DNA of 64,000 bases from Cymodocea nodosa (Eukaryota; Streptophyta; Magnoliopsida; Alismatales; Cymodoceaceae). Made by a program: the position numbers and the translations under genes. The stretch is from positions 22,395,501 to 22,459,500 of the forward strand of contig CM072336.1 of the NCBI GenBank assembly GCA_036874045.1, in the 5' to 3' direction. Numbering within the stretch: the stretch's first letter is position 1; the number at the start of each line of letters is the position of its first letter. Positions 38,898 to 64,000 of the stretch are shown here, in pieces. The notes under the pieces were generated by a model that saw only the letters and a list, made by a program, of their open reading frames with translations, had not been told where the DNA came from and searched no databases.

Positions 38898-41800
38898 ATG
38901 GATCCCTCTCCTCCCGCCGGGCCGGAGGCGCCGATCCCGCGGCGGGCCTTCGGGATGTACTCGTGCCCGCAGCACTCCAGCTCCGGCAGCTTCATCGAGA
39001 CTTTGTACGGCGGAGACGGAAAGTACGTAGACGTCAGGGCGCCTACTCCGCCTGGTTTCGGGGACATCGATCCCTCCCCAGTCTCCTTCGTCCCGGGCGA
39101 CGAGAACGGGTACCCGACGAAGTTCCTCGAGGGGGATGGCGGGTTCGTGCTCGAGGACGTACCTCACCTCTCCGATTACATCCCCGATTTGCCTGTAAGT
39201 GGTGGGAGCTTATTTATCTGTTTGATAGGAGGATGATATATATTTTTTCTCGAGCTTTGGATATTTAGTTGCTGAGTTTTGGTCAATTCATAATATTTGG
39301 ATTGTTTGGGTTGGGATCTTATCGTGTATTGTCTGGTTATTTGATGCGGAATTTGTTTCAAATAGAAGCTGCCAAGAGAAATTTTTTTCACTTATATGAT
39401 GATCTTGTTTCTTCTTGCAGACTTACACGAATCCTTTGCAAGACAATCCATCATATGCTTCCGTTAAGTAAGTTGATCCTTAACTCCTCACATTTCCTTC
39501 TCAGTGCACTATCAAGATCTTCATCATAGCCTGACATTTTCCTAATTTTCCTAATTTCCCCCAGGCAATACTTCATCGACATGGATGATGCCGTTCAACA
39601 AGAAGTGAGCACTTCATCGTTTACATTTATTATTTTAAAGTTATAAATTTAATTCTTGACATCTACGATTGTCTTTTTTGGTATGGAAATCATATTGATA
39701 CATAACTTTTACATATTGTGACTGTACTGCTTATTCATATCTTCTCTTTGCAGGTTGTCGTTCGGAAAGGTAGTCGCAGAGGGATTCATTTTCGACGTGC
39801 TGGACCTCGGCAGAGGGTATGTGGCTTATTCTCTATATCTTGCAAGCCATTCAATTTCTTGATGCCTCGTAATGCATTTTCATGGATTTGAACAGGTGTA
39901 TTTCGAATCAGATGAAGTTCTTCCATGTATTGTAACATGTGGAGGCTTGTGCCCTGGATTGAACACTGTTATTAGAGAGATTGTTTGTGGTTTATCCTCC
40001 ATGTATGGCGTTAAAAGCATCTTGGGAATAGAGGTGGGAATTTTAGTTCCATTTAGCTAATCATGATAGTAGGAAAAAAATGATCTTTTTTTAGAAACGT
40101 CTTGCTAATGAAGGTAGTGTGGAACACCAATTGTTAGTTCCATCAAAGAGCTGCGTCACTTAAAGAATGCCAAGCATTAGTCATTTGGCTTGGGATATTG
40201 TCTTTTCCTCTGCATGCTTTGTTTTATTATCCATGGATGCATCTGGCTTCTGATTTACCATTCTTTGAATTCTGTTCGTGTATTTCATAAGAATTTTAGT
40301 ATAGCAAGATTAAAAAGTGGAGCTGGCAGGGCGGATACAGGGGCTTCTATGCACGCAACACCATTATGTTGACACCCAAAGTTGTTAATGATATCCACCA
40401 ACGAGGGGGGACAGTCCTTGGTACATCACGAGGTGGCCATGATACACTAAAAATTGTTGACAGCATTCAAGATCGTGGAGTCAACCAGGTAAATAGAAGT
40501 AAGACATTTCTTAGTGATGTCATACTTTATATTATGACCCTGATACGTGAATCCTAGTTTTGCTTTGTTGATATTTTTCTATTTTAGGTTTACATTATTG
40601 GAGGTGATGGAACACAAAGAGGGGCTTCTGTGATTTTTGAGGTAACAAAACAATTTCGTATGTGGAATTTCTTCATCTACTTCTGTTTAGTACTTGGCCA
40701 TTATTGATGGTGAATAAACTTCTAATGGAAAATGCATTATGACTGACCAGGATAGGTTGGTTCCTGAAATGTCATGTATCTATTATTTCTCTCTTGCAGG
40801 AAATTCGAAAGCGTGGCTTAAAAGTCTCTGTTGTTGGGATCCCCAAAACCATTGATAATGACATTGCAGTATGGTTTTGTTACCAGGAAGTTAATGCTTT
40901 CAATAATATACCTTTTGTGTTACATTTGTTTATCTATATCTTTTGCTTGTCTTCAAACAGGTCATAGACAAGTCCTTTGGATTTGATAGTGCTGTAGAAG
41001 AGGCCCAAAGAGCTATCAATGCTGCACATGTGGAAGCTCTAAGTGCTGAAAATGGCATTGGTGTTGTGAAGTTAATGGGTCGCTACAGTGGTTAGTTTTC
41101 TCTTTCTATGACAGTTTGTGAACTTAAACGCTAACTTTTCTGAAAGTCAACTTATATGTTGGATCTCAGAGAATAAAGAGTAATTACCTTCAACTTATTA
41201 ATTTATTCTAAGGATCCTCATGCCAATTGTTTTAAGTTTCAATGTTTTAAATTTCATTTTATTTAAGAAATTTGAATGTTGCTGTTAGAGTTAAAAATGT
41301 GAAAAAAAGTTTCCATAAAAATAAAATAGGAACAATAAAAATGTCATTTCATGTGTGTGCAATTCTTCAATCTGATATGGCTAAATGGGTGTTCATTTGC
41401 AGGTTTCATTGCAATGTATGCAACTCTTGCTAGCCGAGACGTGGTATGTGTTGTAATATAATGTATGTATTTTACTCATGTTATGTGGCTTTTATGCATG
41501 TGTAGTCTCTCTTGATCAGTTCCTCTATTAATGAAACTTCCTTTTCTGTTTTCAGAGTCCCAATCACATGTTTTTTTTTTATTGCAGTAAAATCTTTGAC
41601 CTTTTGTCACTTTTTTCTGCAGGATTGCTGTCTAATTCCGGAGTCACCATTTTACTTAGAAGGCCATGGAGGGCTGTTTGAATTCACTGAAAAACGGCTC
41701 AGAGAGAATGGCCATGTGGTTATTGTGGTGGCAGAGGGTGCAGGGCAAGAGCTTATGTCTGAAAGCTTGCATAACATGAATATGGAGGATCCCTCTGGAA

Positions 41801-43410
41801 ACAAATTACTCCTTGATGTTGGGATGTGGCTATCTCAGAAGATAAAGGTTATTGTGTCAACAATTTTCATTATGCTGCTTTTATTTTTGTTTTTAATTTT
41901 TTTACATGTTATTCTCCTATCAGTGAATCACTTTTTACTAATAATAACCGAACTTTTGATTGCTATTCAATGTTTTTGTCAGTGCTCCTGCCATTGATAC
42001 TTGGTTAGACTTTTTTATATAGCTGAAAAAGAGTATATATTTTTGTGTGCCGTTGTATGTGTATTGGGAACCATTCTTCAAACTTTTATTGTTAGGGTCT
42101 GAATAACATCTAACATTTCTTATATTTGCAGGAACATTTCAGCAAAAGGCGGAAGATGTTGATTACTCTCAAATATATAGGTCTGTCAAGGAAAATGTCA
42201 ATTTCCAGTTTGTGCAATTTTAGATTGTTTATAGAATTGTTTTATCTGACAGTAATATTAATGGCCAACAGATCCAACATACATGATTCGTGCAATTCCA
42301 AGTAATGCATCTGACAATGTATACTGTACATTGCTAGCTCAAAGTGCTGTGCATGGTGCAATGGCAGGATTTACAGGCTTTATTGTAGGGCCTGTTAATG
42401 GAAGACATGCATATATACCATTTTACGTAAGCTAAATCTTAGCTGAATTTTTTTCGTGGATAATGTGAGAGTATCTTTTACCAATGAAGTTCCATTTTAT
42501 AAATAGGAGATTTCTGCAAGATATTTGTTACATAGTTGAGATCATAGCTGATGTTTGCGACAAGTGTGTACTTCTAGATATTATCACGTTCTTTAGAAGT
42601 TATTTATGATCCAAAGCTCCTGCAATTTAATTTCGATCAATGTCAATCGGCCAACATCATTATGGATTTGGTAGAGCATCGTATTTCTTAAAAAGATATG
42701 CTTTCGTTAGTGCTCACAATGTCTGGTAACTTTATGGTCCTTTGTCTGATATTATGCTATTTAGATGCCCTTCAAACATAAATTAGTATTGATTAGTATA
42801 TAGACTACGGCTGTGAAGAACCCATCTCATTTTATCTTTTCAATAGCAGTAAACACATATTTATAGTGATTATTTGCATAAACTATGATTATGATGCACC
42901 TGAACCTTGCTTGGACTACCATTTCACCACCAGTTGAAAACATAAACAAACAGTGATTATTGTAAAAACTATGATTATGAAGCACCTGGCTTATACTACT
43001 ATTTCACCGGCACTTGAAAGAATAAATTGATGGTACTTATTGAATAAACTATGATTATGAAGCATCTGGCTTTTTATACTATTTAATCAGCAGTTGAAAA
43101 AGTATTTAACATTGGTCAAATCGGTAGCCCCATATATATATAATATTTCATATCATGATTTGACAAGGGAGTTATTTTAATTTATGTACAGAGAATCACA
43201 GAGACTCAGAACAAGGTGGTTATCACTGACAGGATGTGGGCAAGGTTACTTTCTTCCACTAACCAGCCTAGTTTTCAGAACTACAACAATGTTAGAGCAA
43301 AGGAGAGGGTAATGCCCACACGAGTGCTTACGGTTGCTCCAAGCTTCTCTGATAATAGTATGCAAAATGCCAACGAAGAAGATGAAATTATTACCACCAG
43401 CAGCAATTGA
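38898..43410 (+). CDS. PFK3: ATP-dependent 6-phosphofructokinase (plant cytosolic type, 14 exons)
   Basis: Exons read: 38898-39194, 39421-39467, 39565-39604, 39754-39816, 39896-40033, 40330-40488, 40588-40641, 40800-40868, 40961-41090, 41403-41443, 41623-41847, 42132-42180, 42272-42426, 43192-43410; 561 residues with all phases consistent. It phosphorylates fructose 6-phosphate to fructose 1,6-bisphosphate in glycolysis. Key motifs: GGLCPGLN (165-172), the nucleotide-binding GGDGT (253-257, Gly rather than the second Asp of PPi-dependent enzymes, so ATP is expected), catalytic PKTIDNDI (281-288), MGRYSG (328-333), and the substrate-site region [11 protein letters not shown] in exon 11. The core matches Arabidopsis PFK3 best from memory; the paralogue number is less certain than the family. 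No chloroplast transit peptide is apparent. The N-terminus is about 75 residues longer than I remember for PFK3 and is Pro/Gly-rich. Exon 1 is GC-rich. AATAAA at 43857 is a likely polyadenylation signal. The gene looks intact. Confidence 0.94.
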
Positions 43411-44640
43411 TGAAGTGAGCAAGCTTATAAAAGCTTCATGGATATCTGTTAAGTAGCTGCGAGATTTAGGAATATCTGTGGTCCAGATCAGAAAATAATT
43501 TGAGTCATCCATGAAGGTATATACATACAGTCTCATCAGTGAATAATTGTGAAATACAAAGTGGTACTGTAATTTCTGCAAGCACACCTTTTAGATCTGC
43601 AGATTGTTAGTGTTTGGTTTGCTTTTTTGCCAATCTACTCTCTTCTGTGCCCAGACGATTTGCTCATCATTCTTCTGTAAAATCACTCTCCCTTGGGCTC
43701 TACTGGCTTTTAAAAGCGTACTGTGTTTTCTTTTTTTTCCAGCCTACCGCTATTCGAACACCGTGATACTGAAAATGGGCTAAATTTCTTGACTGTGTTA
43801 CTTGTAATTTTTGATTGTCATTTTTATTTTTCCTTGTAAATACACGAGTCTGTGAAAATAAAATTTTATGGAACACATTATTAGATGATTATAAATATAT
43901 GATAAAATTTTTACTTAAATCAAATAAATATTTGTCTTTGATCTTAAGTTTTCAACCATCAGAGAAAGAAATAGCAGTCAATATAATTTGAATTGAAGAA
44001 CACTACTTCAGCATGGACGGGACCCAACGTTGGCAAGTCTAACCTAGATATGATTGTCATGGTTTCGCATTATGAGGGTGCACAGGCCTTTAGACAAAAA
44101 AGAAGAAAGAGAAAGGGACGAAAGGAAGAAAGAGTGTAGGATGCACATTATAAGGGTTTTTCACCTTCTAAAATTTTTGGACAGTACAAATCCCTCGTAA
44201 ATACAGAAATAGAAATCTATATTGTTATTAAAGAAAAATTGTAGAGAGAACCTGAAGGACAAAAGGAATTAATTATGAACTTGTAGGACAGGAATTGCGA
44301 GAGGTCGAAATAGGTTAGCTTCTTCTCTGGGAGAGAAAACTTCAAGTAATTTAATGAACTAGAGCTAGCTGGAGCAAGGCTTGTTTGCCATGCTTTTGAT
44401 CTGGAGTAGTTCGTGGAATACCATGAACGAAATGACAGTAAAGAGGAGTGGCTTGCATGTATAGATCGTGGTAATCCTCCTGATCTGAGACAGATTTGTG
44501 TAGTATATAAATCAGATGTAGAAACAAAGGAAAGAAGACAAAAAGTTCTGTACAGCACTATGGTTGCTCTACTACTGATCAACTAACCAGTGAGGTTCTA
44601 GGCACCACTAAGCCAACTCTGCTTCTTTTTTTTTATTAAA
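43411..44640. other. PFK 3' UTR and spacer
   Basis: AATAAA is at 43857-43862. Beyond about 43900 the spacer has no recognised gene; the open minus-strand frame 44582-44217 is matched by a broken version in unit 2, so it is not conserved as a gene. Confidence 0.5.
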
Positions 44641-44649
44641 AAAGAAGGA

Positions 44650-47600
44650 AAACTTCTTGATCTACTTATGTGTTGAAGGTGCAGAGTTCTCGCCAACAGT
44701 CTTGATTGTTTCCATATTTTGATTTTTCCCTTTTTTGGAAATGTAGAACCTTTTAATTTCGAATTGCAGAGATTTTGAGAACGAGGCCACCATTATTCAT
44801 TTAAAAAATATCTTCCAGAAAGAACAGCTGTAGATAGTTGCCGTCCTTGAATCGTTTCCTGGTGCAGTGTGGATCCACGAAATTAGCCGTAAACCTGGTA
44901 TGGATTGTTGCCTTGCCAATGCTGTCTTAGGCAACAAGTGTCATCCTTTATAGTGGAATTCAGTGATCGCCAACATTTCCTGTTTTCAGTGGTTTATGTT
45001 GTGACAAAAAAAAATCTTTAAGAAGGTTGCTTTGGTAGGAGATTTATGATCTTAGTAGTGACATAGTTGATGACAAGCTAGACTTAGGTGATTGGTGGTG
45101 AGTTTACTACGGTTTGTGGGGAAGAGAAACATGTTCGTCTAATTGGGATGGATCAGCTTGGGGTGGATAAAATTAACCTGCTCATCCACTTTGTAGTTTT
45201 GAGGAAGCTGGTGGTCATTGTGGAAATCTTTTCTCTTCTTGCAATAATCAAATAGAATCCAAGTTTACGGGAGATTGGATCGTGTGCTCGTTAACTAAGC
45301 TCTAGCTATAGGTTAACATCCTTTTTGCACATTATCTCACCAAATTACACTTTGACCATTCCACCATGCTAGTGAAAGCTACGCAGAATAGAACTTGGGG
45401 AGCTTTGCCATTCCAGTTTCCAAGCATGCAGACCACTCCTGAGTGGTTGGTGTTGGCTGTGGAATGTGTGTGGAAAAATATTAATTAGTCCCATCCTGTT
45501 TATAGAGTTAGAAGAAAAATTTAAGAAGTCAAAAGGATTCTTAAAGGTTGGAACAAGGTGGTGTTTGGAGATGTTAACGCTCACTATGATGGGTTGTTGG
45601 TCCCTGAAATTAAAAAAATCTGCACACTTCTGAAGGTTGCTACTCAAGTGGAGACCTTTTGTTGGTTATTCCTAGTTTTATGACGCAGATTGATAATTAG
45701 TGCTTATGCACGCCCCCCATGGATTAGGAAATTAAAGAAGCTCTCTTTTCCATGAAGGGGGATTGGACTCTTATTAGGTTGGATGGATTTACTGTAGGTT
45801 TTTTTCCAATCTTATTCGGACATGAAATGTAGGAGAGGCCATAAAGCTATCTTGGAAGGTGCTTTGGTGAATCATGCATGGAAGACAGCTTTCTTATCTC
45901 TCATGCCAAAGAAAGATGGTCTTGAAGATTTTCGTGAATTTAGGTTTATAAGTCTTTACAACGTCACCTATAAAATTCTGACGAAGATCATAACAAATAG
46001 GCTTACTCTACTTCTAAACAAGCTTATTTTTGAGTTTTGACTGCTAAGGGGATTTATGGAAGGCCATCTGATTTTTGACAGTATAGCTATTACCCAAGAG
46101 TTGATATAGTGAATTGACAAAGGTGATGGTGGTGGGAATTTAATGGAAAAAACATATGTAGAGTGGAATGACCATTTCTTTATGATGTTTTAAGAAGATT
46201 TGGTTTTTCAAGCACCTGGATTAGTCTCATTCAAAGATGCATCGAAGATAATAGCTTTGCAGTCTTGGTGGAGAACACTCGTTCTCCTTTCCTCAAGGTC
46301 TCTAGAGGCATAAGACAAGGTAATCCCTTCTCACCCAACTTGTTCATACTAGATGAAGAGGTTCTCAATAGGGGCCTAAAGTATTTAGTTTCCAACAATT
46401 TAATTGGTCTTTACAAGTCGGGCATAGATGGTTTAACTATTTCATATCCTTTTTTGCTAATGATATGATTCAATTCCTTGATGGGCATAAACAATTTGTT
46501 GAGAAGGTCATGAACTTCCTGGATGATTTCCAGAAGACCTTGGGTGAAAAAATTAATAAAACATGCTCCATTTAAAGATCTGGGCTATATAACTTCTTAG
46601 GCCGAAACTGAAATCAGATATTTTAAGGGATTGGTGAAGAAGATTAAGAGAAACTCGCAGGTTGGAAAAGTATGCTCCTAAGCTTTGATGGTCGTCTCGT
46701 GCTTATTAAGCATGTCTGATCTAATATCCTTATCCATATGTTGAGTATTTTTGATATCCTCTAAAGCATCATTGAGAAAATTTAGAAAATCATGGTTAAC
46801 TTTCTTTGGGCTGGTAATCAGGAGAAGCGCAAAAATCAAATCATTGGGTGGGTTGACATGTTTTAGCCAGACTAATAGAGGTAGGTGACTTGGGCGTCAG
46901 AGACTTGAAAGAGCTCATGGTAGCACTTAAGATAAAAATGGCTTGGAGGTTAACGTCTTTGGGCTCCTTTTGTTGGTCAGATTTATGAAGTTCCTACATG
47001 GCAAGTTGGATGTGTCTTATAGAAATAATAAGGAACCAGCTCAAGTGAAAAATCTCAAAGCTGCTTGGCTGGAGGTTTGGAAGCTTGTGAGGTGGTGCAG
47101 GTTCCATTAGCTTTGGCATGATCGGTGGCTTCATTGTGGAATAATCCCTGTAGACCACATCAATCCACTAGATTTTGTAGCTCATCTTATGGTTGAAGAA
47201 GTTAATAATAACAGAACTATCCTCAAGGATTTACATCTTACTAGTAACTTGTAGGTGGAGGTTCATGCCATGCTTGATAATGTGCATTAGGACAAATTTT
47301 CCTGGATTTGGATGAGAGATGGGGTTCTCACGATGAAAACAATGTGGGAAGCTACTCGAATCAAATATAATTAATATTAAGGGATTCGTGCTAATCTTTT
47401 GCTACCTAAAATCTTTTTTTACATGTGACATTTGTTTCGGAATGGCCTTTACCACGTCGGATCAAAAAGAATACCAATTGCATCATCTATCCTTTACCAC
47501 GTCAACCATAATCGGCTAGGGGGATGGATTCTAAGGACCACATTTTTTATGCTGGTGACTGGACGATGCTTGGCCGATTATATATGATACCAAAGTACCT
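44650..47600 (+). mobile_element. Dead L1-type LINE, unit 1 copy
   Basis: Pieces follow the plant L1 order: an endonuclease C-terminal sign GRLDRVLVN at about 45270; reverse transcriptase start with LVNHAWKTAFLSLMPKK and FRFISLYNVTYKILTKII (45850-46020); SRGIRQGNPFSPNLF (about 46300); an FANDM box in place of FADD (about 46455); and a C-terminal zinc-binding zf-RVT-like region (about 47400-47580). Stops and frameshifts are frequent and shared with the unit 2 copy, so it was dead before the duplication. The 5' boundary and target-site duplication are not defined. Confidence 0.82.
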
Positions 47601-48127
47601 CCTCCATATCAATATCACAAGAGAACATTTTTCCATGTTAGTGATTTTCTTTTCTTAGGCTTCAAATCGAACAAAAATCTTCTTCATTTCATATAAACCA
47701 AAAGATCACATATATTTGCTGCCAAGGAGAGAAAATTATATACATATATAGGTGGAAAGATCATGCAGAAGTACGCGTATGAAGGATATTATGATCATAT
47801 TTTATTAATTTCTATTAGATAATAACCTTTTTAGACCAACAAACAGTTATATAGGAAAATTAATATAAACAGCAGAAATTTCTAATTAAAGCATCATTTT
47901 CTGAGTGCTTACAGCCATGCTTGTGCTAGCATATATATATATATGCAAATAGCTGGAAAGATATAAAACATGGTACATAATGGCCTTCATGTCAGGTTCT
48001 ATGTAAGAAAGGAGAATAATTATAAAGGCATTTGACGGGCTAGTTGATTCAAGGAAACAAATTTCTAATACATATTGTCATATATGCTTCATTTAGATAT
48101 ATATATCGTTTCCAAATTTACTTTTCC

Positions 48128-48160
<33 letters not shown>

Positions 48161-48572
48161 TCTTGCTGAAATGTTGGCATCTTCATTTTGACATCTTGCA
48201 CTGCTGTTACAAAATTAAATGAAGCTATCATATATATATAAATGGTCACTTTTGTTGGGCAATGCTAGTCTTGTAAAACAGCAAGAGTAATTCTTACATG
48301 GTTTATAAATATGTAATATTAGTGATTAGTGACCTCCACAAATTTGATCTGAGTAGAATATATTAATGATAGGAATTCATTCATAAGTTGCACGATATTG
48401 TTTGAATTATTGACCATTTCCAGCTGGCCAGGAAGCCTGACCAAGTTTGCTTGCACATTGACCTTCTATTGGGGAAGGTTATAATTGCCTTAAGGAGCGT
48501 GGTCAGTGATCAAAATAACTACTGGCTAAAGCTAATTAGTTGGATAATCCAAGTTCCGAGAGAAGGGGATCG
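47601..48572. other. Spacer upstream of RLK copy 1
   Basis: Likely promoter and 5' leader of the receptor gene. It includes TA runs (47930-47944, 48132-48141) and a TG run (48142-48160). No gene. Confidence 0.45.
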
Positions 48573-50908
48573 ATGGATGGCCATGGACGAAGATGTGTAA
48601 TAATGGCTGCTGTGCTCCTTGCATCCATTGCTTTTGTCCACGGGCATTCAACTTCTGGTATGTGACATGGATATCAACCTTGTCCTCTATTCTAACGTCG
48701 ATTTCTCCCCATGAATTTGATTCTGGCTTGTGTTTACTTATGCATCTCCAAATTCATACTCGATCTTGCCAGATTTCATAAACATTGATTGTGGAAAGTC
48801 TAGATATCACAACTCTAGCAACCCAGACACGGGGTTATGGTATGTTACAGATCATGACTTCGTTGATTCTGGTGAGATCCACAAGGTCTCTTCAATGCTT
48901 GACTACCCGAAAGAATACCCTCAGGAGTTGTTTGACTTGAGAAGCTTCCCCAATGGGAGAAGGAACTGCTATAGGGTTAAACCCATCAAACAGGGACGTA
49001 AGTATCTTGTACGTGCTTCTTTTTTGTATGGGAACTACGACGGGAAAAATCAACCCCCAACCTTTGATCTTAACATGGGCATCAACTTTTTGGCAAATGT
49101 TTCGCTGACTAGAGAAAATGTTTACGAGCACTACGAAGCAATGGTTATTGCAACATTAGACACAATTTCTATTTGTTTGATCAATAAGGGCAAGGGGGCC
49201 CCATTCATATCTACCTTAGAGTTACGACCTCTTCCTGATGAATTATATCCTGGACTAAATGTATTTAACAAATATCTAGTTACATGGGGAAGGTTCAGTT
49301 TCACAAAGGGCGACCTAAGGTATGGAGAGATCAATTACACCTTCACTATCAATATATATTGTCAAGTATATATATATAACAAGAGAATACTAAAGTAAAT
49401 AGATATTGCTTATTTATATTTACCATTACTTATCACGTAATTAGGTACCCAGTCGATGTTTATGATCGCCTTTGGAGGGGACTAATACTTAAATTCAACA
49501 TTGTGACCACCAGACGCCGTGTTTCTACGCCTGACAAGGGTTTCAAGCCACCATCAAAAGTAATGCAGACTGCGCATTCTCTACATAACTTGTCAGACTT
49601 TAGTATTGGTTTCAATGCAACCAAAGAAAGTGCGGAATACCAATCTTCAAAGTATTATGTTGCCATACATGTGGCTGAGATCGAAGAACTTGAATATTAT
49701 GAGAAGAGAGTGTTCAGTATTTCATGGAATGAGGAAAAATTGATCGAAAGTTTCACACCTCGATATCTCAAAACTACCACCATTGCCACATCTACGCCCA
49801 AGAAGATGGGAAAAGTAAAATTGCTTTTCTCAGCAATGAATGGATCGACAAAGTCTCCCATCATTAATGCTATAGAGGTGTTCATCGTCAATGACATAAA
49901 ATCTGAAACTGAGACAACCGATGGTACCTTCAATCACAATGACTACATAAATTACTCAAGCGGTTATGCCGATTTTGTAATCTAACTCATGCTTGAATGA
50001 AAATTCACCAGCAAATGCCATGTTTGAGCTAAAGAAGCTATACAAGTTGCAGAGGAACTGGCAAGGTGATCCATGCCTTCCGAATTATCTATCATGGGAG
50101 GGGTTGAATTGTAGCTATGAGCACTCCAAAAGAAGTCCCCGTGTCATCCGCCTGTAGGCCATCTTCTTCATCTCAACAATGATATTTGCAATTGAATTTG
50201 TTGAGTCAGAACAGTCCTAACCAATGTCAATAGTTATCGATACCGTAATATATTTATTATTAATGGGTTTGATAGTTAATAATACGATATGTTTTAATCA
50301 CAGGGACCTATCTTCTGGTGGATTGGAAGGTAAGATAGAAAATGCTTTTGGCAAGCTTGCACGACTACAATACCTGTGAGTTCACTAGCTCTTTACATAT
50401 ATGCAGAATCTTTTTTTTTACTTAGTGATGTATGTGACACACACAACATGATTATTGATAAACAGGGATTTATCAAACAATAAGTTAACAGGTGCAATCC
50501 CCGACATCCTTGCAAGGCTTGAGCATCTTAAGTACTTGTAAGTGTAGACATATTCTTAAATTAACATTATTAAGCTTGAAGGCCAAACCTAGAAGAAAGG
50601 AGCAATATTATACTAGTTGATCAAATCTACATTTCAAACTACAGGAATTTATCATACAACGGACTAAGTGGATCGATCCCTAAGGAGCTTCTGGATCGAA
50701 GTGATTCTGGAACACTTACATTAAGGTATGAGCGTCGACATTTGATTATGTGCCAAGAAGATTAATTTTAGAGGTGATAATTAATAATTAAAAATATATA
50801 TATGTTTACACAAATTTTGATTGAAGATGGCAATATTATCTAAATTGTTTTCGTATATTTAAATTTAGCGTCGAAGGCAACACTGATTTGAATCCTAAAG
50901 TGGCGTAG
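48573..50908 (+). CDS. Malectin-like LRR receptor (LRR-RLK subfamily I), truncated ectodomain copy
   Basis: Exons read: 48573-48657, 48773-49319, 49445-49923, 50012-50153, 50304-50375, 50466-50537, 50645-50725, 50869-50908; 505 residues, open throughout. Order: signal peptide (AAVLLASIAFVHG); malectin-like domain about residues 30-370 (FINIDCG, GLWYVTDHDF, RNCYRVKP, VRASFLYGNYDG, and YYVAIHVAEIEELEYYEKR in its second half); the NWQGDPCLP and SWEGLNCSYEH segment; three LRR exons of 72-81 bp (LDLSSGGLEGKI, DLSNNKLTGAIP, NLSYNGLSGSIP). The family normally continues with a transmembrane helix and Ser/Thr kinase. Here the sequence homologous to the transmembrane exon of the second copy is lost at about 50893 and the frame ends at TAG 50906-50908 in foreign DNA, so the predicted product would be secreted, not membrane-bound. 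A kinase exon survives downstream at 53478. It could be a pseudogene or a receptor-like decoy; expression is unknown. Confidence 0.8.
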
Positions 50909-51740: not shown

Positions 51741-52739
51741 TATTTTCTTAATTTAGCTTTTAATTAAACTAAGTGACAACTATGAGAGTTCACCATTATT
51801 CTTTAAGGTTCTATTTATGCCAACTAAAAAATTAGAATTAGAAAGATGAGAATTTTTTTTTAACTTTCTGAAGTTTGTGCTAAATAAGAAAGTTGAAAAT
51901 AAATTCTCAACTTTCTTATGCATAAAATGTTAGAGATTCTAAACTTTCAGACTTACTTCTATTAGAAAGTTGAGAAAATAGCATAAGAATTCTCTTTGTT
52001 TAATTAATTATTTTATTATTTAAAATTAATTATAATTAAAGTATATATTGTTAATATAATTAAAGTATAATATATTATTTTAGTTAATTGAGTATATTAA
52101 TTCAATTATTATATTATTTTAATTATTACTTTGTAATATACTTTGTATACTATATTATTGTTTTAATTAAAATTACTTTGTATTTACTTTAATATAATTA
52201 AAGTATATTAATATAATATATTTTTTATTATTTTTAATATAATTAAAGTATTTATTGTTAATATTTTTTTATTTAATTAATTTAATACTATTTTTATTAA
52301 TAATCAAATATTAATTATTATTATTATTATTTTATTTTATTTTATAATATTAAAATAATAAATATTATTCTATTTAATTAAATATTATTATTTAATATAT
52401 AATATTAAAATTTCAAGAACTATATAATTTTTTTAACTTTTCGTTGGTAGTACAAACACTTTCAAATTTTTGATCTTTAATTTTTGTTGAAGAAATGAAA
52501 TAAAGATAAAGGAAAATGGAACGAGAAGAAGTGACAATTAGGGAAAATAGAAATATTACTGATTGTGCATACATAAAATAACACCCATTGTCCAATATTT
52601 AACCACAAGAGAATACATGACACCCACTACAACACGTGGAGAGCACACAACTACAAATATGGATAAATCATATCCTAAAAATATAGGCACAACCCATACA
52701 CATAACTCATAGTTTCTAAAGCACAATTACAAAACTCTT
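51741..52739. other. Very AT-rich filler inside the insert
   Basis: The stretch 51840-51990 has repeated AACTTTC/GAAAGTT words in both orientations, MITE-like. From 52000 to 52420 the sequence is nearly pure A/T (TTAATTA, TATTATT). No gene. Confidence 0.5.
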
Positions 52740-53440
52740 ATTTACTTTAGAGATTGTCGATACCAAGACTTCCTCTTAGAAGTTCAAACTAAAGACATTA
52801 GAAGTATCTTTGTGAACATATCAACTAATTGATCTTTTAATCCACAATAAGATAGATAGATCTCACCATTGCTTTGCATTTATCTAATTACATATAACTT
52901 AATATTGAAATGTTTTGTTTTACCATGATACACTAGATTATGAGAAATTGCAATAGCAACTTAATTATCTAAAAATAGTTTTGTAACCTTTGACCAGATT
53001 AATCGTAAATCAACTAGAATCTTTCTCAGACAAATAGCTTTATTTGTAATAGCATTTGCTACAATAATCTCAGCTTTTGCAATGGATTGTGCTAACGATT
53101 CTTATTTTTTGAATACCAAGAAAACATATTGGATCCAAAACAAAACCAATAATCTGATATGCTTTAAAAGTCATCCATAGAACCACCTCAATTGCTATCA
53201 AGATAGTTAGTTAAGAAGGGTCTCAAATGATTGACAAATCATTTGAGATATCTAAGTACTCTCTTTGTTGTCTATAGATGTTTTTTTATTCACACAATGC
53301 ATGAAGCGAGAGAAGACTCTAACTAAAAATAATATATCAAGTCTGGTAGCCATTAAATAGATAAGACATTTGATTAAACTTCTAAAATATTTTCCATCAA
53401 CGCTCTCAACTAGCACCTTTGTACTAAGGATCTCTTTGGG
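52740..53440 (-). mobile_element. Copia-type retrotransposon fossil, 3' part of pol
   Basis: The minus strand shows the reverse transcriptase/RNase H junction of a Ty1/copia polyprotein (MATRLDILFLVRVFSRFMH at about 53350-53290) and the end of RNase H (DQLVDMFTKILL at about 52825). It is a broken fragment and abuts the RLK intron at about 53440. Confidence 0.75.
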
Positions 53441-53477
53441 ATTCATTGATAATATTCCCGTGGTTTATTTGTTTTAG

Positions 53478-53752
53478 ATTCATCTACGTCAACGCCACCG
53501 CTGCCACCGCGGCCGCCACCACCACCGCCGCCACCACCACAACCACCACCACCACCACCACCACTGGAGGGCATGCGAAAATTCTCATACGCGGAGTTGG
53601 TCGCCATGACTAGAAGTTTTGAGAGAGAACTTGTTAGGGGAGGATTTGGGGTTGTCTACCACGGGACGATCCTTGACAACAATAAGAAACAAGTGGCCGT
53701 GAAAATGTTCCCTACGTTCACAACGGAAGTCCAGAAGCAATTCCAGACGGAG
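53478..53752 (+). pseudogene. Stranded first kinase exon of RLK copy 1
   Basis: Matches the kinase exon of copy 2 (63426-63667). It encodes a long Pro-rich juxtamembrane run, then MRKFSYAELVAMTRSFE, a glycine-rich loop and the VAVKMF lysine segment. The loop reads VRGGFG where the second copy has GRGGFG, so the first Gly of the ATP-binding loop is lost. The rest of the kinase is absent because the duplication junction follows 25 bp after the exon. A GTAATA donor is retained at 53753. A methionine at 53573 could in principle start translation. As a kinase it must be inactive. Confidence 0.85.
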
Positions 53753-53776
53753 GTAATAAGTTGAAGTTGATAATAT

Positions 53777-53780
53777 AACA
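53777..53780. other. Tandem duplication junction
   Basis: To the left, sequence equals the RLK intron found at 63668-63690 of unit 2; to the right, sequence equals PFK exon 11 from 41693. About two bases (53778-53779) fit neither parent well, and no meaningful shared sequence is present at the breakpoint, suggesting end joining rather than homologous recombination. Confidence 0.9.
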
Positions 53781-55498
53781 ACGGCTCAGAGAGAATGGTC
53801 ATGTGGTTATCGTGGTGGCAGAGGGTGCAGGGCAAGAGCTTATGACTGAAAGCTTGCATAACATGAATATGGAGGATCCCTCTGGAAACAAATTACTCCT
53901 TGATGTTGGGATGTGGCTATCTCAGAAGATAAAGGTTATTGTGTCAACAATTTTCATTATGCTGCTTTTATTTTTGTTTTTAATTTTTTTACATGTTATT
54001 CTCCTATCAGTGAATCACTTTCTACTAATAATAACCGAACTTTTGATTGCTATTCAATGTTTTTGTCAGTGCTTCTGCCATTGATACTTGGTTAGATTTT
54101 TTTATATAGCTGAAAAAGAGTATACTATTTGTGTGTGCCGTTGTATGTGTATTGGGAACCATTCTTCAAACTTTTATTGTTAGGGTCTGAATAACATCTA
54201 ACATTTCTTATATTTGCAGGAACATTTCAGCAAAAGGCGGAAGATGTTGATTACTCTCAAATATATAGGTCTGTCAAGGAAAATGTCAATTTCCAGTTTG
54301 TGCAATTTTAGATTGTTTATAGAATTGTTTTATATCACAGTAATATTAATGGCCAACAGATCCAACATACATGATTCGTGCAATTCCAAGTAATGCATCT
54401 GACAATGTATACTGTACATTGCTAGCTCAAAGTGCTGTGCATGGTGCAATGGCAGGATTTACAGGCTTTACTGTAGGGCCTGTTAATGGAAGACATGCAT
54501 ATATACCATTTTACGTAAGCTAAATCTTAGCTGAATTTTTTTCGTGGATAATGTGAGAGTATCTTTTACCAATGAAGTTCCATTTTATAAATAGGAGATT
54601 TCTGCAAGATATTTGTTACATAGTTGAGATCATAGCTGATGTTTGCGACAAGTGTGTACTTCTAGATATTATCACGTTCTTTAGAAGTTATTTATGATCC
54701 AAAGCTCCTGCAATTTAATTTCGATCAATGTCAATCGGCCAACATCATTATGGATTTGGTAGAGCATCGTATTTCTTAAAAAGATATGCTTTCGTTAGTG
54801 CTCACAATGTCTGGTAACTTTATGGTCCTTTGTCTGATATTATGCTATTTAGATGCCCTTCAAACATAAATTAGTATTGATTAGTATATAGACTACGGCT
54901 GTGAAGAACCCATCTCATTTTATCTTTTCAATAGCAGTAAACACATATTTATAGTGATTATTTGCATAAACTATGATTATGATGAACCTGAACCTTGCTT
55001 GGACTACCATTTCACCACCAGTTGAAAACATAAACAAACAGTGATTATTGTAAAAACTATGATTATGAAGCACCTGGCTTATACTACTATTTCACCAACA
55101 CTTGAAAGAATAAATTGATGGTACTTATTGAATAAACTATGATTATGAAGCATCTGGCTTTTTATACTATTTAATCAGCAGTTGAAAAAGTATTTAACAT
55201 TGGTCAAATCGGTAGCCCCATATATATATAATATTTCATATCATGATTTGACAAGGGAGTTATTTTGATTGATGTACAGAGAATCACAGAGACTCAGAAC
55301 AAGGTGGTTATCACTGACAGGATGTGGGCAAGGTTACTTTCTTCCACTAACCAGCCTAGTTTTCAGAACTACAACAATGTTAGAGCAAAGGAGAGGGTAA
55401 TGCCCACACGAGTGCTTACGGTTGCTCCAAGCTTCTCTGATGATAGTATGCAAAATGCCAACGAAGAAGATGAAATTATTACCACCAGCAGCAATTGA
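53780..55498 (+). pseudogene. 5'-truncated PFK duplicate (exons 11-14)
   Basis: Contains the distal two thirds of exon 11 (53780-53934), exon 12 (54220-54268), exon 13 (54360-54514) and exon 14 (55280-55498), with splice sites and frame preserved and only a few replacements relative to the intact gene (for example FTGFTVG for FTGFIVG in exon 13). It lacks exons 1-10, including the ATP-binding GGDGT and catalytic PKTIDNDI motifs, so it cannot encode an active enzyme. Exon 12 begins in phase 0, the same phase as the end of the upstream RLK kinase exon. Confidence 0.93.
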
Positions 55499-56735
55499 TG
55501 AAGTGAGCAAGCTTATAAAAGCTTCATGGATATCTGTTAAGTAGCTGTGAGATTTAGGAATATCTGTCGTCCGGATCAGAAAATAATTTGAGTCATCCAT
55601 GAAGGTGTATACATACAGTCTCATCAGTGAATAATTGTGAAATACAAAGTGGTACTGTAATTTCTGCAAGCACACCTTTTAGATCTGCAGATTGTTAGTG
55701 TTTGGTTTGCTTTTGCCATTCTACTCTCTTCTGTGCCCAGACGATTTGCTCATCATTCTTCTGTAAAATCACTCTCCCTTGGGCTCTACTGGCTTTTAAA
55801 AGCGTACTGTGTTTTCTTTTTTTTCCAGCCTACCGCTATTCGAACACCGTGATACTGAAAATGGGCTAAATTTCTTGACTGTGTTACTTGTAATTTTTGA
55901 TTGCAATTTTTATTTTTCCTTGTAAATACACGAGTCTGTGAAAATAAAATTTTATGGAACACATTATTAGATGATTATAAATATATGATAAAATTTTTAC
56001 TTAAATCAAATAAATATTTGTCTTTGATCTTAAGTTTTCAACCATCAGAGAAAGAAATAGCAGTCAATATAATTTGAATTGAAGAACACTACTTCAGCAT
56101 GGACGGGACCCAACGTTGGTAAGTCTAACCTAGATATGATTGTCATAGTTTCACATTATGAGGGTGCACAGACCTTAGACAAAAAAGAAGAAAGAGAAAG
56201 GGACGAAAGGAAGAAAGAGTGTAGGATGCACATTATAAGGGTTTTTCACCTTCTAAAATTTTTGGACAGTACAAATCCCTCGTAAATACAGAAATAGAAA
56301 TCTATATTGTTATTAAAGAAAAATTGTAGAGAGAACCTGAATGACAAAAGGAATTAATTATGAACTTGTAGGACAGGAATTGCGAGAGGTCGAAATAGGT
56401 TAGCTTCTTCTCTGGGAGAGAAAACTTCAAGTAATTTAATGAACTAGAGCTATAGCTGGAGCAAGGCTTGTTTGCCATGCTTTTGATCTGGAGTAGTTCG
56501 TGGAATACCATGAACAAAATGACAGTAAAGTGGAGTGGCTTGCATGTATAGATCGTGATAAACCTCCTGATCTGAGACAGATTTGTGTAGTATATAAATC
56601 AGATGTAGAAACAAAGGAAAGAAGGCAAAAAGTTCTGTACAGCACTATGGTTGCTCTACCACTGATCAACTAACCAGTGAGGTTCTAGGCACCACTAAGC
56701 CAACTCTGCTTCTTTTTTTTTTATTAAAAAAGAAG
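55499..56735. other. Duplicate of the PFK 3' UTR and spacer
   Basis: Near-identical to 43411-44640, including the AATAAA signal. No gene. Confidence 0.7.
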
Positions 56736-59690
56736 GAAAACTTCTTGATCTACTTATGTGTTGAAGGTGCAGAGTTCTCGCCAACAGTCTTGATTGTTTC
56801 CATATTTTGATTTTTCCCTTTTTTGGAAATGTAGAACCTTTTAATTTCGAATTGCAGAGATTTTGAGAACGAGGCCACCATTATTCATTTAAAAAATATC
56901 TTCCAGAAAGAACAGCTGTAGATAGTTGCCGTCCTTGAATCGTTTCCTGGTGCTGTGTGGATCCACGAAATTAGCCGTAAACCTGGTATGGATTGTTGCC
57001 TTGCCAATGCTGTCTTAGGCAACAAGTGTCATCCTTTATAGTGGAATTCAGTGATTGCCAACATTTCCTGTTTTAAGTGGTTTATGTTGTGACAAAAAAA
57101 AATCTTTAAGAAGGTTGCTTTGGTAGGAGATTTATGATCTTAGTAGTGACATAGTTGATGACAAGCTAGACTTAGGTGATTGGTGGTGAGTTTACTACGG
57201 TTTGTGGGGAAGAGAAACATGTTCGTCTAATTGGGATGGATCAGCTTGGGGTGGATAAAATTAACCTGCTCATCCACTTTGTAGTTTTGAGGAAGCTGGT
57301 GGTCATTGTGGAAATCTTTTCTCTTCTTGCAATAATCAAATAGAATCCAAGTTTACGGGAGATTGGATCGTGTGCTCGTTAACTAAGCTCTAGCTATAGG
57401 TTAACATCCTTTTTGCACATTATCTCACCAAATTACACTTGACCATTCCACCATGCTAGTGAAAGCTACGCAGAATAGAACTTGGGGGGAGCTTTGCCAT
57501 TCCAGTTTCCAAGCATGCAGACCACTCCTGAGTAGTTGGTGTTGGCTGTGGAATGTGTGTGGAAAAATATTAATTAGTCCCATCCTGTTGATAGAGTTAG
57601 AAGAAAAATTTAAGAAGTCAAAAGGATTCTTAAAGGTTGGAACAAGGTGGCGTTTGGAGATGTTAACGCTCGCTATGATAGGTTGTTGGTCCTTGAAATT
57701 AAAAAAATCTGCACACTTCTGAAGGATGCTACTCAAGTGAAGACCTTTTGTTGGTTATTCCTAGTTTTATGACACAGATTGATAATTAGTGCTTATGCAC
57801 GCCCCCCATGGATTAGGAAATTAAAGAAGCTCTCTTTTCCTTGAAGGGGGATTGGACTCTTATTAGGCTGGATGGATTTACTGTGGGTTTTTTTCCAATC
57901 TTATTAGGACATGAAATGTAGGAGAGGCCATAAAGCTATCTTGGAAGGTGCTTTGGTGAATCATGCATGGAAGGCAGCTTTCTTATCTCTCATCCCAAAG
58001 AAAGTGGTCTCGAAGATTTTCGTGAATTTAGGTTTATAAATCTTTCCAACGTCACCTATAAAATTCTGACGAAGATCATAACAAATAGGCTTACTCTACT
58101 TCTAAACAAGCTTATTTTTGAGTTTTGACTACTAAGGGGATTTATGGAAGGCCATCTGATTTTTGACAGTATAGCTATTACCCAAGAGTTGATATAGAGA
58201 ATTGACAAAGGTGATGGTGGTGGGAATTTAATGGAAAAAACATATGTAGGGTGGAATGACCATTTCTTTATGATGTTTTAAGAAGATTTGGTTTTTCAAG
58301 CACCTGGATTAATCTCATTCAAAGATGCATCGAAGATAATAGCTTTGCAGTCTTGGTGGAGAACACTCGTTCTCCTTTCCTCAAGGTCTCTAGAGGCATA
58401 AGACAAGGTAATCCCTTCTCACCCAACTTGTTCATACTATATGAAGAGGTTCTCAATAGGGGCCTAAAGTATTTAGTTTCCAACAATTTAATTGGTCTTT
58501 ACAAGTCGGGCATAGATGGTTTAACTATTTCATATCCTTTTTTGCTAATGATATGATTCAATTCCTTGATGGGCATAAACAATTTGTTGAGAAGGTCATG
58601 AACTTCCTGGATGATTACCAGAAGACCTTGGGTCAAAAAATTAATAAAACATGCTCCATTTAAATATCTGGGCTATATAACTTCTTAGGCCGAAACTGAA
58701 ATCAGATATTTTAAGGGATTGATGAAGAAGATTAAGAGAAACTCGCAGGTTGGAAAAGTATGCTCCTAAGCTTTGATGGTCGTCTCGTGCTTATTAAGCA
58801 TGTCTGATCTAATATCCTTATCCATATGTGGAGTATTTTTGATATCCTCTAAAGCATCATTGAGAAAATTTAGAAAATCATGGTTAACTTTCTTTGGGCT
58901 GGTAATCAGGAGAAGCGCAAAAATCAAATCATTGGGTGGGTTGACATGTTTTAGCCAAACTAATAGAGGTAGGTGACTTGGGCGTCAGAGACTTGAAAGA
59001 GCTCGTGGTAGCACTTAAGATAAAAATGGCTTGGAGGTTAACGTCTTTGGGCTCCTTTTGTTGGTCAGATTTATGAAGTTCCTACATGGCAAGTTGGATG
59101 TGTCTTATAGAAATAATAAGGAACCAGCTCAAGTGAAAAATCTCAAAGCTGCTTGGCTGGAGGTTTGGAAGCTTGTGAGGTGGTGCAGGTTCCATTAGCT
59201 TTGGCATGATCGGTGGCTTCATTGTGGAATAATCCTTGTAGACAACATCAATCCACTAGATTTTGTAGCTCATCTTATGGTTGAAGAAGTTAATAGTAAC
59301 AGAAATATCCTCAAGGATTTACATCTTACTAGTAACTTGTAGGTGGAGGTTCATGCCATGCTTGATAATGTGCATTAGGACAGATTTTCCTGGATTTGGA
59401 TGAGAGAGGGGGTTCTCACGATCAAAACAATGTGGGAAGCTATTTGAATCAAATATAATTAATATTAAGGGAAATTAAGGGATTCGTGCAAATCTTTTGC
59501 CATCTAAAATCTTTTTTTTCATGTGGCATTTGTTTCGGAATTGCCTTCCAACGAAGTTGAACATCGGATCAAAAGGAATTCCAATTGCATCATCTATCCT
59601 TTACCTCGTCAACCATAATCGGCTAGGGGGATGGATTCTAAGGACCACATTTTTTATGCTGGTGACTGGACGATGCTTGGCAGATTACAT
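56736..59690 (+). mobile_element. Dead L1-type LINE, unit 2 copy
   Basis: Collinear with 44650-47600 and sharing its stops. Same order of remains: the endonuclease end, reverse transcriptase (SRGIRQGNPFSPNLF at about 58390) and zinc-binding tail, which is somewhat better preserved here (FFFMWHLFRNCLPTKLN at about 59510). Two copies arise from segmental duplication, not from two insertions. Confidence 0.82.
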
Positions 59691-60846
59691 ATGATACCAA
59701 AGTGCCTCCTCCATATCAATATCACAATAGAACATTTTTCCATGTTAGTGATTTTCTTTTTCTTGGGCTTCAAGTCGAGCAAAAATCTTCTTCATTTCAT
59801 ATAAACCAAAAGATCACATATATATGCTGCGAAGAAGAGAAAATTATATACATTTATAGGTGGAAAGATCATGCACAAGTACACGTATGAAGGCTATTAT
59901 GATCATATTTTATTAATTTCTATTAGATAATAACCTTTTTAGACCAACAAACAGTTATATAGGAAAATTAATATAAACAGCAGAAATTTCTAAGTAAAGC
60001 ATCATTTTCTAAGTGCTCACAGCCATGCTTGTGCTAGCATATATATATATATATATGCAAATAGCTGGAAAGATATAAAACATGGTACATAATGGCCTTC
60101 ATGCCAGGTTCTATGTAAGAAAGGAGAATAATTATAAAGGTATTTGACTGGCTAGTTGATTCACGGAAACAAATTTCTAATACATATTGCCATATATGCT
60201 TCATTTAGATATATATATCGTTTCCAAATTCGCTTTTCCTATATAAAACATGGTACATAATGGCCTTCATGTCAGGTTCTATGTAAGAAAGGAGAATAAT
60301 TATAAAGGCATTTGACGGGCTAGTTGATTCACGGAAACAAATTTCTAATACATATTGCCATATATGCTTCATTTAGATATATATATCGTTTCCAAATTCA
60401 CTTTTCCTATATATATGTGTGTGTGTGTGTGTGTTCTTGTTGAAATGTTGGCATCTTCATTTTGACATCTTGCACTGCTGTTACAAAATTAAATGAAGCT
60501 ATCATATATATATAAATTGTCACTTCTCTTGGGCAATGCCAGTCTTGTAAAACAGCAAGAGTAATTCTTACATGGTTTATAAATATATAATATTGGTGAT
60601 TAGTGACCTCCACAAATTTGATCTGAGTAGAATATATTAATGATAGGAATTCATTCATAAGTTGCACGATATTGTTTGAATTATTGGCCATTTCCAGCTG
60701 GCCAGGAAGCCTGACCAAGTTTGCTTGCATATTGACCTCCTATTGGGGAAGGTTATAATTGCCTTAAGGAGCGTGGTCAGTGATCAAAATAACTACTGGC
60801 TAAAGCTAATTAGTTGGATAATCCAAGTTCTGAGAGAAGGGGATCG
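59691..60846. other. Spacer upstream of RLK copy 2
   Basis: Homologous to 47601-48572 with a local tandem duplication. It includes TA and TG microsatellites (about 60037-60056 and 60417-60434) and the presumed promoter of the receptor gene. Confidence 0.5.
60073..60408. repeat. 168-bp tandem duplication private to unit 2
   Basis: ATATAAAACATGGTACATAA at 60073 recurs at 60241 with the whole following 168 bp nearly unchanged. Unit 1 has a single copy at about 47963. The event therefore postdates the 12-kb duplication. Confidence 0.92.
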
Positions 60847-63667
60847 ATGGATGGCCATGGACGAAGATGTGTTATAATGGCTGCTGTGCTCCTTGCATCC
60901 ATTGTTTTTGTCCACGGGCGATCAACTTCTGGTATGTGACATGGATATCAACCTTGTCCTCTATTCTTACATCGATTTCTCCTGATGAATTTCATTCTGG
61001 CTTGTGTTTACTTATGCATCTTCAAATTAATACTTGATCTTTCCAGATTTCATAAACATTGATTGTGGAAAGTCTAGACATCACAACTCTAGCAACCCAG
61101 AAACTGGGTTATGGTATATTTCAGATCATGACTTCATTGATTCCGGTGAGCTACACAAGGTCTCTTCAATCCTTGACTACCCGAAAGAATACCCTCAGGA
61201 GTTGTTTGACTTGAGAAGCTTCCCCAATGGGACAAGGAACTGCTATAGGGTTAAACCCATCAAACAGGGACGTAAGTATCTTGTACGTGCTTCTTTTTTG
61301 TATGGGAACTACGACGGGAAAAATCAACCCCCAACTTTTGATCTTAACATGGGCATCAACTTTTGGGCAAATGTTTCGCTGAATAGAGAAAATGTTTACG
61401 AGCACTACGAAGCAATGGTTATTGCAACATCAGACACAATTTCTATTTGTTTGATTGATAAGGGCAAGGGGGCACCATTCATATCTATTTTAGAGTTACG
61501 ACCTCTTCCACATGAATTATATCCTGGACTATATGCATTTAACGAATATCTAATTACATTGGATAGGCTCAGCTTCACAAAGCACGACCTCAGGTATGGA
61601 GAGATCAATGACGGGTTCATTAACAATATATATCCTCTAGTATAACAAGAGATTGCCAAAGTAAATAGATACCAATTACTTAATTATATTTACCCTTACA
61701 TTTCACTTAAGGTACCCATTCGATGATTTTGATCGCTTATGGAAGGGAGAAACATTTGATTCCATTGTTTTCAACATTGTGACCACCACTCATAATGTTG
61801 CTACGTTTGACAAGGGTTTCAAGCCGCCATCAGAAGCAATGCAGACTGCGATTTTTCCATAAAACTTCTCATTGATCATTATGGATTGGAATGCAACTAA
61901 TGTAACTGTGCAATACCAATCTTCAAGGTATTATGCTGCCATGCATGTGGCTGAGGTCGAACAACTTGAAGATGATGAGAAGAGAGTGTTCGGTATTTTG
62001 AGCAATGACCATTTCATAGAAAGTTTCACCCCTCGATATCTCATGGCAACCACCATTGACATATCTACAACCGAGAATACGGGAATATTATTTTTGTTAC
62101 TGGGACAAAACAATGAATCCACAAAGCCTCCAATCATTAATGCTATAGAGGTGTTCGTCGTCATGGATATGCAATCTGAAACTGAGACAACCGATGGTAA
62201 GTTGGTCATAATGACTGCATAAATTACTTCCCACCTTTCCATCCTAATAACAAACAAGTAACTATGTCGATTCCGTAATCAAACTCATGCTTGAATGACA
62301 ATTCACTAGCAAATGCCATGTTCGAAGTCAAGAAGCTGTACAAGTTGCAGAAGAACTGGCAAGGTGATCCATGCCTTCCGAATAATCTATCATGGGAGGG
62401 GTTGAATTGTAGTTATGAGCACTCCAATAGAAGTCCCCATGTCATCCACCTGTAAGACAACTTCTTCATTACGACATTGATATTTGTGTACGTTGGTAGA
62501 AATATTTGCAGTTGAATTTATTGGGTCAGAACAGTCCCAAACAATGCCCATAATTATCGCGGTAGCATAATATATTTATTTCTACGATATTCTTCAACCA
62601 CAGGGACCTCTCTTCCAGTGGATTGGAAGGTAAGATAGAAAATGCTTTTGGCAAGCTTACACGACTACAGTACCTGTGAGTTCACTAGCCCTTTACATAT
62701 ATGCAGAATCATTTTTTTTTTACTTAGTGATGGATGTGTTTCACACAACATGATTATTGATTAAACAGGGATTTATCAAACAATAAGTTAACAGGTGCAA
62801 TCCCCCACATCCTTACAAGGCTTGAGCATCTTAAGTACTTGTAAGTATAGACACATTCTTAAATTAACATTAATAAGCTAGAAGCCCAAACCCAGAAGAA
62901 AGGAGCAATATTATACTAGTTCATCAAATTTGTATTTCAAACTACAGGAATCTATCATACAACAGATTAAGTGGATCGATCCCCAAGAAGCTTCTGGATC
63001 GAAGTGCTTCGGGAACACTTACATTAAGGTATGAACGACATTTGATTGTGTGCCAAGAAGATTAATTTTAGAGGTGAAATTTAATAATTAAGGAATATAT
63101 ATGTTTGCACACGTGCTGATTGAAGATGGCAATATTATCTGAATTGTTTTGGTATATACAAATTTAGCATCGAAGGCAACCCTGGTTTGAAGACTGAAAA
63201 GGACCCGGACAATATCTGGATCCGAATTTTGGTTGGGGCAGTGGCATCATTGGTGGCCATTATCATCATTGCGGTCGTTATCTACTTTGTGGTGAAGAGA
63301 AGAAAGCGCGGAAAGGGAAAACCACGACAAGGTTAATTAATTAATTAAGGTCCATGTGTCTGTGATATAATTAATACTGAATCTAAATATTCATTGATAA
63401 TATTCCCTTGTTTTATTTGCTTTAGATTCATCTATGTCAACGCCGCCGCTGCCGCCGCCACCACCACCACCACCTCCACTGGAGGGCATGCGAAAATTCT
63501 CACACGCCGAGTTGGTCGCCATGACTAGAAATTTTGAGAGAGAACTTGGTAGGGGAGGATTTGGGGTTGTCTACCACGGGACGATCCTTGACAACAATAA
63601 GAAACAAGTGGCCGTGAAAATGTTCCCTACGTTCACAACGGAAGTCCAGAAGCAATTCCACACGGAG
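60847..63667 (+). pseudogene. Malectin-like LRR receptor kinase (LRR-RLK subfamily I), 5' part, premature stop
   Basis: Exons read: 60847-60931, 61047-61593, 61712-62196, 62310-62451, 62604-62675, 62769-62840, 62948-63028, 63168-63331, 63426-63667, continuing beyond the window. Order: signal peptide (AAVLLASIVFVHG), malectin-like domain, three LRR exons, a transmembrane helix (ILVGAVASLVAIIIIAVVIY) followed by a basic stop-transfer RRKRGKGK, a Pro-rich juxtamembrane stretch, then KFSHAELVAMTRNFE, glycine-rich loop GRGGFGVV and VAVKMF lysine. Members are plasma-membrane Ser/Thr kinases with roles such as defence and symbiosis signalling (family knowledge). In exon 3 the frame meets TAA at 61860-61862, about codon 261 in the malectin-like region, where the equivalent position of copy 1 is coding. 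Frame and phases are otherwise intact on both sides, so this looks like a recent nonsense change, a null allele or an assembly error. The rest of the kinase lies outside. Confidence 0.85.
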
Positions 63668-64000
63668 GTAATAAGTTGAAGTTGATAATATATATTCGTG
63701 TATCTTGAAGTTGACATCTTTACTTTTAATTAAATGATTTTGAATCGAATGTTTACGTTTTATCATAGTATATCAAAGTTGAAATAGACGTCCTAAGTCC
63801 TTATACAACATCAATGTTGGTATAGTCTAATATTTAAAATAATTAAGAAGGAGATTTGTACATTAATTAACCTAGCAAAAACTCTAACTCTATTGTTAAT
63901 TAATTAACCAATTGGTGGGTTGCGTTTAACTTGAATGCTTTCGCTATATATATAGAACAAAGCACGTACAATTTTTTATGAATTGAACACCTTCTTTTTT
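63668..64000 (+). other. Intron of RLK copy 2, continuing past the window
   Basis: Begins with the GTAATAAG donor after the first kinase exon. No further kinase exon is found before the window ends. Confidence 0.7.

Follow-up and report, generated by a model that had tools for sequence, protein, structure and literature searches.

What event leaves two unrelated genes broken at the edges of one repeated segment, and does the whole of such a segment share a single age? These questions are raised by a 64,000-nucleotide stretch of the Cymodocea nodosa genome (assembly GCA_036874045.1, contig CM072336.1, positions 22,395,501 to 22,459,500 of the forward strand), hereafter the window, in which parts of an ATP-dependent 6-phosphofructokinase gene (PFK) and of a putative malectin-like, leucine-rich-repeat (LRR) receptor kinase gene (RLK) occur twice. 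All results come from this one assembled 64-kb window, which contains no N, and the uniqueness of the unit's edges was judged within it. A sequence-only reading had proposed a 12-kb tandem duplication with breakpoints inside the two genes, and nucleotide self-comparison recovered this geometry. We consider it somewhat probable that the locus is a real tandem duplication formed by illegitimate joining, in which the RLK part brings together two diverged lineages. The unit and the genes that it contains or cuts are the following, in window positions.

41691-53777, + strand: duplicated unit, copy A, about 12.09 kb (self-comparison and ungapped junction comparison)
53778-63692, + strand: duplicated unit, copy B, 9.9 kb (self-comparison and ungapped junction comparison)
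53777-53780, no strand: junction between the RLK-A intron and PFK exon 11 (compared without gaps to both parent sequences)
38898-43410, + strand: PFK-A, intact ATP-dependent 6-phosphofructokinase gene, 14 exons, 561 aa, TGA stop at 43408-43410
53780-55497, + strand: PFK-B, 5'-truncated tail with 155 bp of exon 11 and exons 12-14, without exons 1-10
48573-50908, + strand: RLK-A ectodomain gene with a signal-peptide-like start, malectin-like domain and LRRs, TAG stop at 50906-50908
60847-63667, + strand: RLK-B, with a signal-peptide-like start, malectin-like domain, LRRs, transmembrane exon (63168-63331) and first kinase exon (63426-63667)

Three blocks align the two copies head to tail: 41690-48133 with 53777-60245 at 97.7% identity, 47961-50892 with 60241-63191 at 87.0%, and 53441-53777 with 63389-63692 at 86.6% over 337 columns that include a 33-base gap. 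Neither outer flank (41400-41690 and 63693-64000) has a second copy in the window; the copies being head to tail and their flanks unique, the arrangement in the assembled sequence is that of a tandem duplication as judged within the window. Copy B is shorter mainly because it lacks a 2.55-kb stretch of copy A. The left breakpoint lies inside PFK exon 11 (41623-41847) and the right one in an RLK intron, 25 bp past the end of the first kinase exon (53478-53752), both where the sequence-only reading had put them. It had also called one PFK gene intact and the other 5'-truncated, which agrees with the exon content listed above.

At the junction, the match to the RLK side extends to 53777. On the PFK side, 53778 equals 41691, 53779 differs from 41692, and the bases from 53780 onward equal those from 41693 onward up to the first ordinary substitution. 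The join therefore consists either of two filler bases (AC), as previously suggested, or of a 1-2 bp overlap in which 53779 was substituted later, and both fit. Homology between the breakpoints amounts to 0-2 bp in the ungapped comparison, that is, to nothing substantial, which matches the earlier claim and is what non-homologous joining leaves behind. End joining or template switching would be the natural reading of such a junction.

The age of the unit proved less simple. Copies A and B differ at 402 of 9,447 aligned sites, and the mismatches are strongly clustered, with a dispersion in 200-site windows of 13.9 versus at most 1.77 in 2,000 shuffles. When partitions into 1 to 10 segments were compared by the Bayesian information criterion (BIC), four segments performed best (BIC 2939.6 versus 3334.0 for one rate). 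From left to right in copy A, mismatches reach 1.2% in 41693-47147 (67/5,450), 4.4% in 47148-49253 (93/2,100), 18.0% in a central hump and 6.7% in 50316-53777 (58/872).

49254-50315, + strand (copy B, 61528-62615): divergence hump from the end of exon 2 to the start of exon 5, 184 of 1,025 sites (18.0%)

Neutral divergence, which a single young duplication should have left even along the unit, is thus uneven, and a single clock for the whole unit is rejected. The windowed alignment that the sequence-only reading had proposed as a check consequently divides its estimate of about 1% for a fairly young event: the figure holds on the PFK side and fails for most of the RLK gene. Taken left to right, noncoding sites alone mismatch at 63/4,876, 57/1,416, 9/115, 58/329, 30/336 and 3/57 (left part versus hump, p 1e-38). 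The 432 bp upstream of the ATG are nearly alike in RLK-A and RLK-B, with 12 of 432 positions differing. Inspected by eye, divergence changes rather abruptly near 49182 and is patchy within the 4.4% stretch, a pattern in favor of multiple exchanges or recombination between alleles.

The hump covers the second half of the malectin-like domain together with introns 2-4, about residues 189-422 of RLK-A. These introns differ by 15.8, 18.4 and 18.8%, compared with 5.6-10.9% for introns 5-7, and because the introns share the hump, protein-level selection is by itself insufficient as an explanation. Small insertions and deletions rise as well: the left 5.45 kb has eight, each 1-2 bp long, and the 1-kb hump has ten, ranging from 1 to 26 bp. 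Hypermutation from C to T was considered as a cause and rejected: transitions and transversions stand at 89:95, the transitions divide into 44 C/T and 45 A/G, and there is no C-to-T excess.

The last segment is itself mixed. It carries 46 mismatches in 573 sites up to 50892, 7 in 85 around a proline-codon repeat with the 33-base gap, where misalignment may account for part of them, and 5 in 214 (2.3%) at its very end. The left 5.45 kb (67/5,450) and these last 214 bp do not differ significantly (Fisher p 0.196). Since both fit one recent event, it is most economical to suppose that the illegitimate duplication is young and that its middle is foreign or allelic. At substitution rates of 6.5e-9 and 1.5e-9 per site per year, a noncoding divergence of 0.0129 would correspond to about 1.0 or 4.3 million years, respectively.

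The two RLK copies have met different fates. RLK-A comprises exons 1-7 and the beginning of exon 8, giving 505 open codons (505 aa) without the transmembrane exon; its Pfam matches are Malectin_like (1.5e-83, residues 33-358), LRR_1 (3e-11) and LRR_8 (2e-10). In self-comparison, homology between A and B ends at 50892 and resumes at 53441, so that RLK-A is without its membrane anchor already upstream of the junction. Two further features of copy A concern this region.

50893-53440, no strand: replacement stretch of 2,548 bp; the corresponding 200 bp or so of copy B include most of the transmembrane exon
53478-53752, + strand: orphan first kinase exon of RLK-A, ending in phase 0, the phase in which PFK exon 12 begins

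The sequence-only reading had described this gene as broken at its 3' end. The kinase is indeed cut at the junction, but the break is not confined to it, the transmembrane exon having been replaced upstream by the 2,548 bases. Besides a short palindrome inside it, the replacement stretch showed no similarity to any other part of the window in self-comparison. No terminal inverted repeat was found at its edges, where edge-to-edge matches span 4 bases at most, and its longest open frame gave no Pfam match at 0.01. The part at 51348-51677 could be read as gag-like, again with no Pfam match at 0.01, and an AT-rich core (52093-52492) has 7-10% G+C. The orphan kinase exon matches PK_Tyr_Ser-Thr at E 3.4e-4 with 20.4 bits, under the curated cut-off of 23.1. 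It would by itself splice in frame to exon 12 of PFK-B, both being in phase 0. A present-day in-frame RLK-PFK fusion was nevertheless rejected, as neither of the two routes tried gave an open frame from the RLK-A start: exon 8 runs into the stop at 50906-50908, and splicing exon 7 to the kinase exon shifts the frame. If transcribed, RLK-A could at most yield a secreted malectin-LRR ectodomain.

The second RLK gene announced by the sequence-only reading is present as RLK-B, although it carries an in-frame TAA in exon 3 (61860-61862) at a point where copy A stays open; the other exons seen are open. This codon does not look like a single-base error, because several adjacent bases also differ. 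RLK-B pieces match Malectin_like in Pfam (3.7e-53 and 2.7e-16) and PK_Tyr_Ser-Thr (7.1e-6), while exon 8 (63168-63331) is a putative transmembrane segment judged by eye, as was the signal peptide. No additional kinase exons were seen before the window ends. The layout of a malectin-like LRR receptor kinase is thus present in RLK-B as far as the first kinase exon, with the TAA in exon 3, and in RLK-A without the transmembrane exon. Translation of RLK-B, if it is transcribed, could be cut short in exon 3.

On the PFK side, PFK-A has both the PFK domain and the open reading frame of an ATP-dependent phosphofructokinase, and PFK-B is the tail only. The spliced translation of PFK-A is open and all 13 of its introns are GT-AG; it matches Pfam PFK at 5.6e-60, and its best match in the PDB is 2hig_A, an ATP-PFK (6.6e-90). 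Exons 12-14 of PFK-B keep their splice sites and carry five substitutions relative to PFK-A in about 577 coding bp. PFK intron 13 contains in both units a diverged direct repeat of about 155 bp (77-78%; 42865-43099 and 54953-55187, self-comparison). A frame in the PFK-RLK spacer likewise occurs in both units (46172-46468 and 58260-58556); we take it to resemble a plant LINE reverse transcriptase fragment, and its first copy gave no Pfam match at 0.01. The spacer-side alignment of copy B includes one further local event.

60073-60245 and 60241-60413, + strand: local 173-bp tandem duplication in copy B only, the copies overlapping at ATATA (self-comparison)

These two 173-bp copies mismatch at 4 of 173 sites. 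Elsewhere in the window, self-comparison revealed a direct repeat pair at 30155-31587 and 34221-35662 (80.9% across 1,459 columns; shorter repeats lie within it) and diverged short direct repeats at 14987-15436 (73-81%). ARAGORN detected no tRNA in the window, and nothing there matched Rfam at gathering score.

Under the duplication account, one break would have fallen in PFK exon 11 and another, 12 kb downstream, in an RLK intron. End joining or microhomology-mediated template switching would then have connected the two head to tail, probably across two chromatids, at a time corresponding to about 1-2% of neutral divergence. At that event the RLK parts of the two copies would not have come from one sequence but from lineages about 18% apart in the second malectin-like half. 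The second lineage may have entered through homologs carrying different RLK alleles, or through later overwriting of part of one copy by a related RLK, that is, by conversion. After such a history PFK-A would remain complete, PFK-B would be no more than a dead tail, and RLK-A would be severed from its kinase, having additionally lost its transmembrane exon to the 2.55-kb replacement. A bolder version, which we put forward tentatively and hold to be rather unlikely, has the joining occur between homologous chromosomes with strongly different RLK alleles, locking two receptor haplotypes in tandem in one step, one of which would now make a secreted ectodomain without anchor or kinase. The unit's geometry is one that tandem duplications with chimeric genes in Drosophila yakuba and Drosophila simulans reportedly share: breakpoints inside two genes are said to leave the outer genes whole and a chimera between them. 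Those duplications are reportedly segregating variants in population data, whereas the present one is a single assembled copy in a plant.

The closest described relative that we compared is the OAK / At5g59670 tandem RLK cluster of Arabidopsis thaliana, in which OAK encodes a malectin-like LRR receptor kinase (Smith et al. 2011, PMC3136440). As two OAK alleles are described there, 55 of 152 residues differ at positions 180-331, approximately the second malectin-like region, compared with 19 among the other 721; the promoters of the two alleles are 97% alike, and haplotype switching within the locus is reported (PMC3136440). Both loci combine tandem duplication of a gene of malectin-like LRR kinase type, putative in our case, with allele-like divergence in the second malectin-like half, and at OAK the account given includes recruitment of nearby gene pieces and a mosaic ascribed to conversion or recombination (PMC3136440). 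The position of our hump closely resembles the divergent OAK region, and a common cause may be suspected. The systems differ in that the kinase activity of OAK is required for a phenotype and 34 accessions were compared (PMC3136440), whereas the present locus is known from one sequence; furthermore, the unit here also cuts a PFK gene, and one RLK lacks its transmembrane exon while the other has a nonsense codon.

Several observations weigh against a young duplication with a second RLK lineage. The 214-bp cut at the right end was chosen after the alignment had been inspected; taken from 53446, to include the proline-codon repeat and the intron end, the right end (12/299) diverges more than the left (p 0.0007), although it remains far below the hump (p 4e-11). 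Nucleotide self-comparison, without a protein-level self-search, found no third copy of the RLK exons in the window that could have served as donor of the hump. The OAK authors, in the account considered here, call the divergence of the second malectin region not representative of the cluster's paralogs and orthologs (PMC3136440). Finally, about 1% on the PFK side with a jump in the RLK ectodomain is what allelic divergence would produce, which leads to the possibility of a false haplotype (heterotype) duplication, in which two alleles of one locus were assembled in tandem and the junction is a misjoin or stems from a chimeric read. Haplotype copies of divergent regions are named as the main source of false duplications in PMC9516828, which also reports joins without read support that arose from wrong gap filling. 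With such cases our locus shares adjacent allele-like copies, locally raised divergence and gene pieces at the joint. According to that source, false copies are most often separated by gaps and sometimes joined by sequence lacking read support, depth gaps being another mark (PMC9516828); unlike these, the copies here abut in a base-exact join with no N and hence no assembly gap between them. The edges and the junction are exact, and no overlap or homology is available that an assembler could have used for a mis-overlap, which favors a physical junction. We therefore regard a heterotype error as unlikely, though with an appreciable chance of being correct.

Two further explanations keep the duplication and change its clock. 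An old tandem duplication of about 18%, in which gene conversion recently homogenised the PFK side and the kinase exon while the RLK middle kept its true age, finds a parallel in the likely 2.7-kb conversion between tandem RLK copies at OAK (PMC3136440), and the older appearance of the right end as a whole would suit it. For this account, conversion must have run through upwards of 5.4 kb, mostly noncoding, on one side and must also have reached the unit's final base on the other, an end at which the copies mismatch at 5 of 214 sites; we judge it quite improbable. One young duplication on one clock, with the RLK region evolving faster through selection or hypermutation, could draw on the many nonsynonymous changes in exon 3 (dN 0.26-0.30 and dS 0.12-0.27 across three sub-ranges of the hump, the nonsynonymous excess not being significant, p 0.13). 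The equal divergence of introns 2-4, the absent C-to-T excess and the rise in insertions and deletions all speak against it, and we give it hardly any credence.

Neither a real duplication nor an assembly error would alter the general picture, as an RLK cluster with such a history has already been published (PMC3136440). Were the junction an assembly error, the locus would be a clear case of two RLK alleles masquerading as a duplication. If, as we favor, the junction is real, it implies that the age of a tandem duplicate is not readable from one portion of it, and the locus would offer a test of whether duplications between homologs capture the allelic diversity of receptor genes.

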